64,000 bases of DNA from the NCBI GenBank assembly GCA_001567275.1, contig LNBX01000032.1, forward strand, positions 1 through 64,000, given 5' to 3'. The translations under genes and the position numbers were made by a program. Below the pieces are notes generated by a model, which saw only the letters and a program-made list of their open reading frames with translations, was not told the origin of the DNA and did not search any database. The DNA is from Bacteroidetes bacterium OLB10 (GTDB lineage Bacteria; Bacteroidota; Bacteroidia; AKYH767-A; OLB10). This document shows, in pieces, positions 1 through 23,188 of this stretch. Every line of letters begins with the position of its first letter. The first letter of the stretch is position 1.

Positions 1-134
1 TTATACGGCCTGTATGGAGATGTTGATTTCTCATAACCACAATTATGACGCTCCAACCGCTCGGCCACATCCTGCGTTTGTCCGATATAATAACGCTGGC
101 CTTTTTCTGAATACAATATATAAACCCAGTACAT
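1..134 (-). CDS. GIY-YIG nuclease family protein, second tandem copy (3' part outside window)
   Basis: This is the N-terminal 44 codons of a small GIY-YIG nuclease; the gene runs off the left edge. The reading frame is open and encodes exactly the same residues as the complete copy at 319-567. The two copies differ at seven positions in this stretch, and all seven are synonymous third-codon-position changes, which suggests selection on the protein rather than decay. The gene follows a repeat of the tRNA-Ser 3' end and of the tRNA terminator, just as the first copy does. Family knowledge: stand-alone GIY-YIG domains (UvrC N-terminal/YhbQ-like) are putative metal-dependent nucleases of mostly unknown role. 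The true C-terminus cannot be seen. Confidence 0.85.
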   Translation of the reverse strand, partial: MYWVYILYSEKGQRYYIGQTQDVAERLERHNCGYEKSTSPYRPY

Positions 135-137
135 ATT

Positions 138-160
138 AAAAAAGCTCCCTCTCGGAAGCT
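138..160 (-). terminator. Duplicated copy of the tRNA-Ser terminator hairpin
   Basis: On the minus strand a 7-bp stem closed by a GAGA tetraloop is followed by a run of T, directly before the ATG of the partial GIY-YIG gene. It is the counterpart, 433 bp away, of the hairpin at 571-593. It carries one substitution that turns an A-U pair into a G-U wobble, so the stem is still possible. Confidence 0.6.
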
Positions 161-167
161 CATTTGG

Positions 168-233
168 CGGAGAGAGAGGGATTCGAATGGCGAGGCTTGG
201 CTCGCCATCGAGAGCCTAGCCTCTCGACCCCCG
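168..233 (-). pseudogene. tRNA-Ser 3'-end remnant split by a 40-bp insert
   Basis: Positions 168-187 repeat exactly the last 20 nt of the tRNA-Ser at 601-685 (discriminator, acceptor 3' strand, T-stem 3' strand and T-loop). The next six tRNA bases reappear at 228-233, after a 40-bp insert at 188-227. Beyond 233 there is no tRNA similarity, so the remnant holds only the tRNA tail and cannot make a tRNA. It sits between the two GIY-YIG genes and marks the junction of the tandem duplication. Confidence 0.75.
187..227. repeat. Twin-hairpin element inserted in the tRNA remnant
   Basis: Two perfect inverted repeats lie back to back: an 8-bp stem with a 6-nt loop at 187-208 (arms ATGGCGAG/CTCGCCAT) and a 7-bp stem with a 6-nt loop at 208-227 (arms TCGAGAG/CTCTCGA). 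Together they fill the 40 bp that interrupt the tRNA-like sequence. There is no coding capacity. It may be a very small palindromic mobile element or an RNA structure; no second copy was recognised in the window. Confidence 0.6.
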
Positions 234-302
234 ATAAATTAATCTCTTATTTTAAAAAACTTCCTGATAAAAATATCTTAAACAATTCTACAAACAATAA
301 CT

Positions 303-323
303 GTTGAGAGCTTCGCTCTCAAC
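303..323 (-). terminator. Hairpin at the 3' end of the GIY-YIG gene
   Basis: A perfect 9-bp inverted repeat (GTTGAGAGC/GCTCTCAAC) with a 3-nt loop overlaps the stop codon of the gene at 319-567. No T-run follows on the minus strand, so termination is uncertain; it could instead protect the 3' end of the mRNA. Confidence 0.35.
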
Positions 324-567
324 ATCCGTACTTTTGGATAAACTTTTGTAAATCTTCCGTATTCAGATTCTTCAGTTTTTTCTCTAACTGCATGGCCTCA
401 CTGCGTGTCGGCTTTTCTATTTTGCAAACCAATTTATATGGTCTGTATGGCGATGTTGATTTTTCATAGCCGCAATTATGACGCTCCAACCGCTCGGCCA
501 CATCCTGTGTTTGTCCGATATAATAACGCTGGCCTTTTTCTGAATACAATATATAAACCCAGTACAT
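319..567 (-). CDS. GIY-YIG nuclease family protein
   Basis: Complete 82-residue single-domain GIY-YIG protein. The signature residues are present: Y5-I-L near the N-terminus, Y16-I17-G18, R26, H30-N31 and a candidate metal-binding Glu at E62 within AMQLEKKLK. The length matches UvrC-N/YhbQ-like stand-alone domains. There is no DNA-binding extension like those of homing endonucleases, so substrate and role are not known. The ATG lies three bases after the T-run of the tRNA-Ser terminator, so expression would need terminator read-through or a promoter inside the tRNA gene. A nearly identical second copy follows at 1-134. Confidence 0.9.
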   Translation of the reverse strand: MYWVYILYSEKGQRYYIGQTQDVAERLERHNCGYEKSTSPYRPYKLVCKIEKPTRSEAMQLEKKLKNLNTEDLQKFIQKYGC

Positions 568-620
568 ATTAAAAAAGCTTCCTCTCGGAAGCTCATTTCG
601 CGGAGAGAGAGGGATTCGAA
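434..620. repeat. Tandem duplication unit, copy B (copy A at 1-187)
   Basis: Positions 434-620 and 1-187 align without gaps at a constant offset of 433 bp, with 9 mismatches in 187 positions. The shared unit covers the GIY-YIG 5' region, the tRNA terminator and the last 20 nt of tRNA-Ser. Homology stops inside the tRNA T-arm on one side. On the other side it runs beyond the window edge. Confidence 0.9.
571..593 (-). terminator. Rho-independent terminator of tRNA-Ser
   Basis: On the minus strand, AGCTTCC-GAGA-GGAAGCT forms a 7-bp stem with a stable GNRA-type loop, followed by six T residues. It lies eight bases beyond the tRNA 3' end and ends next to the GIY-YIG start codon. Confidence 0.8.
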
Positions 621-685
621 CCCCCGTTGGTGTTACCCAAGGCGGTTTTCAAGACCGCTGCAATCAACCACTCTGCCATCTCTCC
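601..685 (-). tRNA. tRNA-Ser(TGA)
   Basis: An 85-nt tRNA read on the minus strand. The acceptor arms GGAGAGA and TCTCTCC pair over 7 bp. The anticodon loop reads CT-TGA-AA, which gives serine. There is a variable arm of class II type and a T-loop TTCGAAT. The discriminator is G, as expected for serine. The 3' CCA is not encoded. Its last 20 nt are repeated at 168-187. Confidence 0.95.
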
Positions 686-21892: not shown

Positions 21893-23032
21893 TTACTTGA
21901 GCAACTCGCGTGCGATAACCAGTTTTTGTATTTCGGAAGTTCCTTCACCGATGGTACACAGCTTGCTGTCGCGATAAAATTTTTCTACCGGAAAATCTTT
22001 GGTATAACCATATCCTCCGAAAATCTGTACTGCCTCTGTACTGGTATAAACTGCCGTCTCCGAAGCATAATACTTTGCATAAGCCGATTGTTGAGTCACT
22101 TTCTCACCACGGTTTTTAAGGTCGGCAGCCTGCAGGGTAAGCAACTCTGCAGCTTCAATGCGTGTGGCCATATCAGCAAGTTTAAATCCTATTGCCTGGA
22201 ATCCTGCAATGGGTTGCCCAAACTGATGACGCTCTTTTGAATATTTTACTGCAGCATCAAAAGCACCTTTGGCAATGCCCAGTGAAAGTGCTGCAATAGA
22301 AATGCGACCACCATCCAATATTTTCATTGCCTGCTTAAATCCTTCGCCTTCTTTGCCCAACATATTTGACATAGGCACGCGGCAGTCTTCAAAAACCATT
22401 TCAGCGGTTTCGCTGCAACGCATACCCAGTTTGTTTTCTTTTTTTCCTGCTTTGAATCCCGGTGTGCCACGCTCCACAACCAACGCTGTGATGCCGTTTG
22501 AATCGAGCAACTCACCTGTACGCACAAGCACCACTGCCACATCGCCACTCTTGCCATGTGTAATCCAGTTTTTAGTTCCGTTTATTACCCAACTGTCACC
22601 GTCTTTCTTAGCCACACACTGCATGCGCATAGCATCGCTGCCGGTATTGGCTTCGGTAAGTCCCCAAGCACCAATCCACTCTGCGGTAGCAAGTTTTGGC
22701 AACCATTTTTTCTTTTGTTCTTCATTACCAAACGTCATGATATGACCTGTACAAAGCGAATTATGTGCTGCCATGGAAAGTCCTACTGCACCACAAACAC
22801 GGGCTACTTCAACAATTGCTGTAACATATTCGAAATAGCTGAGTCCTGCACCACCATATTCTGTTGGTACCAACACTCCCATGAGGCCTGTTTCGCCCAT
22901 TTTCTTAAATACTTCCACAGGAAATTCCTGCGACTCATCCCACTTCATCACATTGGGACGGATGTGTTTTTCGGCAAAATCTTTTACGGTTTGAGCAATA
23001 AGTTGCTGGTTCTCTGTAGGTGCAAATTCCAT
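21893..23032 (-). CDS. Acyl-CoA dehydrogenase
   Basis: 379 residues, full length for the short-chain/butyryl-CoA dehydrogenase group. Landmarks: GAWGLTEANTGSDAM (FAD/substrate signature 1, about 123-137), KNWITHG, and the C-terminal QIFGGYGYTKDFPVEKFYRDSKL with GEGTSEIQ. The catalytic Glu is expected just before or within this last segment. It catalyses the FAD-dependent first step of beta-oxidation and passes electrons to ETF. A -7-like TATCTTTG at 23075-23082 lies 43 bp upstream. Confidence 0.95.
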   Translation of the reverse strand: MEFAPTENQQLIAQTVKDFAEKHIRPNVMKWDESQEFPVEVFKKMGETGLMGVLVPTEYGGAGLSYFEYVTAIVEVARVCGAVGLSMAAHNSLCTGHIMTFGNEEQKKKWLPKLATAEWIGAWGLTEANTGSDAMRMQCVAKKDGDSWVINGTKNWITHGKSGDVAVVLVRTGELLDSNGITALVVERGTPGFKAGKKENKLGMRCSETAEMVFEDCRVPMSNMLGKEGEGFKQAMKILDGGRISIAALSLGIAKGAFDAAVKYSKERHQFGQPIAGFQAIGFKLADMATRIEAAELLTLQAADLKNRGEKVTQQSAYAKYYASETAVYTSTEAVQIFGGYGYTKDFPVEKFYRDSKLCTIGEGTSEIQKLVIARELLK

Positions 23033-23188
23033 TGTAATAATTGTTAAAGTTTAAACTGTATTTTCAGCAGGCGGCAAAGATAAAAAATGGTTGCTGATGA
23101 TGCTATGGGAGTGTCATTTTATCTGATTTACGTCAGGGGGCTTTGCATCCTCATTTATTCTGAATACTTTCGGAAAAAATTACATTAC

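Follow-up and report, generated by a model that had tools for sequence, protein, structure and literature searches.

The tRNA-Ser/GIY-YIG array at the start of the window, as we call the 64,000-nt stretch of the Bacteroidetes bacterium OLB10 genome analysed here (contig LNBX01000032.1, positions 1 to 64,000), is probably a resident copy, now partly decayed, of a minimal mobile element that occupies tRNA genes, is driven by a GIY-YIG nuclease, has hairpin-only derivatives and inserts at tRNA loops. The element consists of a single GIY-YIG gene of ~82 aa and a pair of adjacent hairpins. Compared with empty sites, filled sites have the tRNA segment that surrounds the insertion point as a direct repeat: one copy is intact, the other carries the hairpin pair inside a tRNA loop (exactly between GGGGG and TTCGAA in the window), and the nuclease gene lies between the two. 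The hairpin pair follows the nuclease lineage, whereas the flanking tRNA sequence is that of the local tRNA. Within one genome, further tRNA genes carry hairpin-only units that lack a nuclease gene, and units stand in tandem in varying numbers.

The initial annotation of this DNA had described a 433-bp unit, made of the tRNA-Ser tail, its terminator and a GIY-YIG gene, that is present twice in tandem, and this description was borne out. The direct repeat joins positions 1-187 to 434-620 at a spacing of 433 bp with exactly 9 mismatches in 187 bp, all 7 differences within the 44 shared codons are synonymous, the difference between the two terminators keeps pairing as G-U, and the homology boundary lies in the tRNA T-arm, where the repeat ends after the TTCGAA of the T-loop. 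A repeat of 187 bp at 95% identity cannot be attributed to chance. Reading along the minus strand, the intact tRNA-Ser(UGA) is followed by its terminator, the GIY-YIG gene, CGGGGG and the two hairpins, after which come the second tRNA tail, starting with TTCGAATCCC, a second terminator and a second GIY-YIG gene that runs leftwards (Table 1). The hairpin pair (188-227), absent from that first reading, sits exactly at the T-stem/T-loop junction (CGGGGG/TTCGAA) of the second tRNA tail, and a covariance model of the pair and its tail (model R1) matches the window at 178-231 with an E-value of 1e-18. In the Rfam scan only tRNA reached the gathering score. Elsewhere in the window, at 22945-23041, ARAGORN reports a 97-nt tRNA-Lys, apparently a false positive; the opposite strand of this region reads like an acyl-CoA dehydrogenase gene.

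Table 1. Features of the tRNA-Ser/GIY-YIG array, in window coordinates.
Feature	Positions	Strand	Basis
Intact tRNA-Ser (anticodon UGA), host gene and presumed target	600..685	-	ARAGORN; Rfam tRNA, 58.9 bits
Terminator hairpin and T-run 3′ of the intact tRNA, unit 1	571..593	-	AGCTTCCGAGAGGAAGCTTTTTT, read directly
GIY-YIG nuclease gene, unit 1, 82 aa, complete	319..567	-	Pfam PF01541, E 5.9e-18
CGGGGG, remnant of the 5′ T-stem strand of tRNA-Ser, left of hairpin 1	228..233	-	
Hairpin 1, TCGAGAG-6 nt-CTCTCGA	208..227	-	Pattern search of the genome; covariation
Hairpin 2, TGGCGAG-6 nt-CTCGCCA, abutting hairpin 1	188..207	-	Covariation; model R1
Second copy of the tRNA-Ser 3′ tail (TTCGAATCCCTCTCTCTCCGC)	167..187	-	Repeat comparison
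Terminator, unit 2, one G-U change	138..160	-	Read directly
GIY-YIG gene, unit 2, first 44 codons, very probably running on into contig C24	1..134	-	
Whole tandem array, two units, 433-bp period, 187 bp common at 95%	1..620	-	

The first base of the window is also the first base of its contig (C32 in our numbering), and another contig of the same genome, C24, ends with the identical 127 bp. Because this overlap with the start of C32 is exact, C24 very probably continues the left copy of the array; the 127 bases themselves look like an assembly k-mer overlap. Both nuclease copies had been taken to be maintained, a view that was not supported when the left copy was traced into C24 and found to be C-terminally truncated (..EAMQLENTLTIYLI): after ..EAMQLE it reads NTLTIYLI and a stop, which replace the last 20 residues. 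A truncated left copy beyond the window edge was among the refuting conditions that the initial annotation had set. A histone-like gene adjoins the truncated copy, and the sister species G001 has the same truncation beside the same histone-like gene. Up to codon 62, ahead of the break, the two copies differ by 7 synonymous changes and 1 nonsynonymous change (C48S), which indicates that the coding part was under selection. Since the contig breaks inside the repeat, copy number is uncertain and further units may be hidden; in draft genomes such arrays can coincide with contig breaks, as in the window genome and G001. The same genome has a second array at the start of contig C15 (L085, 1-1130), where three GIY-YIG genes, the two outer ones incomplete, stand in tandem with a tRNA tail that bears the hairpin TCCCGATTAATCGGGA between them; the tRNA itself would fall beyond the contig end. 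On contig C13 (L084, 1636-1897) a tRNA-Asn is followed by a decayed GIY-YIG fragment, whereas the gene at tRNA-Asn of G001 (L083) is full-length.

The nuclease belongs to the GIY-YIG family, the Y, Y.G, R, H and E columns being near-invariant among 107 homologues. Its closest solved sequences are 1zg2 (E 1.3e-6), 1ywl (E 0.0026) and SLX1 4xlg (E 0.29); unlike the element described here, UPF0213-type GIY-YIG proteins are stand-alone proteins and SLX1 is a structure-specific nuclease subunit, and neither is known in hairpin elements at tRNA genes. Protein search found homologues in 43 of 61 related genomes, and peptide-pattern matches lie on contigs labelled Bacteroidota, Neomarinimicrobiota, Acidobacteria, Verrucomicrobia, Calditrichia and Balneolales; in our searches the protein matched no phage or plasmid carrier. 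A tRNA gene lies within 600 bp of 64 of the 110 homologues from the 61 genomes, and within 100 bp of 40, in a set whose members are not all independent and in which tandem copies are counted. In the independent named set, 23 of 27 have a tRNA within 600 bp; adjacency by chance would be roughly 1%, by our estimate of ~40 tRNA genes in 3 Mb. The fetched locus is without a tRNA for 42 of the 110, some of which are near contig ends. At all 68 loci with a tRNA in the fetched stretch, tRNA and nuclease share the same strand (opposite strand, 0), the tRNA being upstream of the nuclease in 56 and downstream in 12. A specificity for the 3′ end of tRNA-Ser, as first proposed, did not stand: homologues use 21 tRNA species, a 5′ type exists, and some units have hairpins but no nuclease.

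Beside the homologue genes lie 85 partial copies of the local tRNA. These copies contain 74 inserts of at least 10 nt, 50 of which fold with z < -2 relative to shuffles. In the window class the insert consists of two adjacent hairpins and falls exactly between the T-stem G and TTCGA; it occurs at Ser (window and G001), Val (Flavobacterium dankookense), two Leu, Ser-CGA, Pro, Lys and Arg, with a more distant form at Gly. Other classes have hairpins in the D-arm or anticodon arm of the partial copies, and some units are located on the 5′ side of the tRNA, where they repeat its upstream region. Hairpin position and number differ between clades. For an alignment of nine sequences of the window class, loops were cut to six bases and a single bulged base was left out of L073. 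All 14 pairs of the double hairpin are formed in all 9 sequences and 9 pairs have two-sided changes, a result reached by none of 500 shuffles; slid controls fell to 22-47% paired. The stems follow the conserved pattern TnnnGA[C/G] .. [G/C]TCnnnA. At the start of G001 contig C11 (L068, 1-160), several successive copies of hairpin 1/hairpin 2 stand at the contig end, a local expansion of the pair.

We then asked how hairpins and tRNAs are distributed over a tree of the 107 proteins (85 columns), which is of low resolution, the proteins being short. The window-type junction required 4 changes, compared with 10.8 under shuffled labels (none of 300 shuffles was as low), some hairpin classes having been sorted partly by hand. 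The 20-protein clade of the window spans 9 isotypes, with 8 isotype changes compared with 9.9 in shuffles. The few junction changes on the tree and the mixed isotypes of this clade indicate that the hairpin goes with the nuclease, the tRNA serving as the site. Isotype is also conserved when the whole tree is considered (29 changes versus 51), from which we infer that many elements have been resident for a long time.

Hairpins were also searched for independently of the protein, using the covariance model of hairpin pair and tail on 295 genomes, 20 of which gave matches. Among the 27 loci other than the window and G001 (two of which overlap), a nuclease is present at 9 and a tRNA within 1.5 kb at 16; the model includes the TTCGA tail, so the link to tRNAs is partly built in, and the link to the nuclease is not. 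Genome G183 has 17 matches and G048 has 15. The pair of G183, [TCGCGAG..CTCGCGA][TGGCGAG..CTCGCCA], lies at the T-loop of tRNA-His, with a nuclease, and at those of tRNA-Phe and tRNA-Arg-CCG, the latter with three 97-bp units. It is also found near two tRNA-Met genes and tRNA-Arg-UCU, inside apparent D-arm remnants, and at some sites that have no tRNA, and a further model match lies near tRNA-Asp; among the G183 loci scanned for the nuclease, it was found beside tRNA-His only. In G038 (L183, 540-1010), between apparent tuf and secE genes (named from the sequence), six 66-bp repeats precede tRNA-Trp, each consisting of the tRNA 5′ half with its D-loop replaced by the hairpin TCCCGATAGCTATCGGGA, and no nuclease gene was seen in this stretch. 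Downstream of a tRNA-Ser, locus L155 has two tandem tRNA-Ser remnants in which hairpins replace parts of the anticodon and T arms, with no GIY-YIG gene, and the tRNA-Ala arrays of Chryseobacterium and Kaistella (L058, L063) have several hairpin-bearing tails and only one unit with a nuclease. The 15 matches of G048 (L245-L253) are of the window type, and none has a tRNA in the stretches fetched. Each of 21 genomes has between 2 and 23 palindromes of the form TCCCGA..TCGGGA, and G048 has 99 of them (control, 0 to 3); they are mostly only mildly dispersed, and the hairpin pairs and palindromes of G048 are a possible burst away from tRNAs. Hairpin 1 was considered as a dispersed repeat of the window's own genome and rejected, its pattern occurring at one place only.

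A plain free-standing homing gene that cuts tRNA T-loops, with homologous recombination making the tandem copies and the hairpins acting as passive spoilers of the cut site, is possible but rather unlikely as an account of these loci. Its precedent is the phage T6 GIY-YIG enzyme SegB, whose in vitro cleavage motif is RAWTSGAAC and which drives tandem amplification of tRNA together with a C-terminally truncated segB (PMC13096335). On our reading, the reverse complement of this motif, GTTCSAWTY, appears to fit the T-loop GTTCGAATC; the hairpins sit inside the motif, and the left copy is C-terminally truncated like SegB escape mutants. With SegB, a free-standing homing endonuclease of phages T4/T6, the element shares the GIY-YIG fold, a gene beside tRNA genes and the tandem amplification of tRNA and truncated nuclease gene. 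Unlike SegB, it is chromosomal, has one small catalytic domain, lies 3′ or 5′ of a single tRNA, and possesses a specific hairpin pair, local tRNA duplication and hairpin-only derivatives. Passive cut-site spoilers fit poorly with stems that are conserved in sequence and covary, with the recurrence of one pair, in the absence of a nuclease, at several tRNAs and elsewhere, and with tandem arrays of hairpins alone, and the switching of isotype with local tRNA duplication is unlike ordinary allelic homing.

The tRNA loci of relatives were compared, those of tRNA-Ser as the initial annotation had proposed, and both varying copy number and empty sites, at tRNA-His and tRNA-Arg of one sister pair, were found. 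In G212, the sister species of G183, the native terminator directly follows tRNA-His, whereas in G183 the gene is followed by a tail, a terminator, the GIY-YIG gene, TCGTGGG, the hairpin pair and then the native tail. All three 97-bp units of G183 are missing from tRNA-Arg-CCG of G212. The boundaries between filled and empty states are base-exact at both genes, and the direct repeats at the filled sites, read directly, span ~41 and ~37 bp, the hairpins lying in the second of the two copies. Other matching members of the genus of G183 and G212 are also without the insert at tRNA-His; the difference within this one pair would reflect either gain in G183 or loss in G212. At the tRNA-Ser of the window, relatives have an array (G000, G001), a decayed gene (G002) or hairpin remnants without a gene (G007), and G005, G009 and G013 have no GIY gene at the orthologous tRNA-Ser; in genus g2, tRNA-Ser carries an array in G019, one unit in G017 and no GIY match in G004 and G013. 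No empty site was found at this tRNA-Ser within the genus of the window, where G002 retains a decayed remnant and the contig of G003 breaks at the tRNA. Presence and absence at the same site in relatives, a feature of homing endonucleases, was thus observed. The proposal of a minimal element, made of nuclease and tRNA tail, that inserts or expands at a tRNA gene and leaves an intact tRNA is supported by the variation in copy number, the absence or decay at tRNA-Ser and the exact empty sites.

Another conceivable reading is that the tRNA fragments with hairpins give rise to tRNA-like RNAs that serve in regulation or in a toxin-antitoxin system, the GIY-YIG protein acting with or on them; presence and absence between sister species argues for a dispensable mobile unit and makes this improbable. 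The units do keep terminators, stable structures and the tRNA strand, but the hairpin pairs also lie away from tRNAs. Local tandem duplication of the tRNA and its neighbour gene by unequal crossing-over, with later decay and no mobility, is very improbable. Such duplication would produce the tandem structure and the unequal decay of copies in G000 and G001, but it does not account for recurrence at 21 tRNA species in several phyla with hairpins at the same tRNA position, for empty sites with exact boundaries, for a hairpin pair common to several G183 loci, or for a nuclease phylogeny that hardly tracks isotype inside the window clade. Finally, tRNA-targeted integrative elements usually leave a duplicated tRNA 3′ tail, and the element likewise uses a tRNA end and has its tRNA regenerated, but a scar of a tyrosine-recombinase element that used the tRNA 3′ end is hardly credible given the hairpin pairs, the tandem minimal units, the 5′-side and D-arm versions, and the lack of an integrase gene both in the filled G183 inserts (one GIY-YIG gene or 97-bp units only) and in the fully read window array.

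For a GIY-YIG-driven mobile element of tRNA genes, we propose that the nuclease would recognise and cut a motif in the T-loop (or D-loop) of the tRNA gene, and that repair would copy in a new unit, duplicating the local part of the tRNA. SegB, with its cleavage motif and the tandem amplification that it drives, is a precedent for this proposal too. The hairpin pair would mark the element and break the putative cut site in the extra tail, and only the intact tRNA gene would stay a target. In the array, the T-loop of the extra tail is split by the hairpins and the intact tRNA keeps an uninterrupted putative motif, so self-cleavage would have to be restrained somehow. Because the stems are conserved and hairpins have spread away from the nuclease gene, the nuclease may also bind or cut the hairpins, in the way that RAYTs act on REP hairpins. 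More tentatively, and at somewhat less than even chances, the GIY-YIG protein might be the transposase of the hairpin pair, that is, a single-domain nuclease mobilising autonomous and hairpin-only elements into tRNA loops and duplicating the tRNA stretch at the site, which would spare the essential gene.

The RAYT enzyme is an HUH tyrosine transposase, and CGTC-type REPs have been reported without a dedicated transposase (PMC3733652). REP/REPIN sequences with their RAYT share with the element the hairpin pairs, the presence of one nuclease gene against several hairpin-only copies per genome and the tandem clusters; the enzyme here is GIY-YIG, not HUH/Y1, and the insertion sites are mainly tRNA loops. 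The GTAG tag at the foot of REP hairpins is absent from the hairpin pairs and flanks that we read. Non-autonomous hairpin copies, a feature of REP/RAYT systems, are found in G183 and G048, whereas the window genome has the pair at a single place; a REP/RAYT-like role of the hairpins is plausible, since hairpin-only copies exist. The element also recalls the rtT repeats of E. coli tyrT, tandem repeats 3′ of the tRNA gene that each start with the tRNA 3′ tail, where we know of no GIY-YIG gene and no double hairpin in the tail. Overall, the element resembles both a homing endonuclease and a REP/RAYT pair, but departs from the latter in enzyme family and tag and shares the features of the former only partly. 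We found no published description of this arrangement in the open-access PMC literature, the scope of our search. The combination of a GIY-YIG gene, an element-specific hairpin pair, local tRNA duplication and hairpin-only derivatives is apparently a new class of element, which may become a variant of homing genes if any tRNA-borne homing gene is counted as one kind.

If this reading is true, the element would be among the smallest autonomous mobile elements known (~350-430 bp, with one 82-aa gene), and it would account for the recurrent stand-alone GIY-YIG genes, hairpin-interrupted pseudo-tRNAs and tandem tRNA-tail repeats of Bacteroidota and other phyla. It would also show how an essential gene can be parasitised and yet left unbroken, one intact tRNA always being kept, and would suggest a specific enzyme as a candidate for some palindromic repeats. 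The short unit and the filled and empty pair of G183 and G212 make the mechanism testable.
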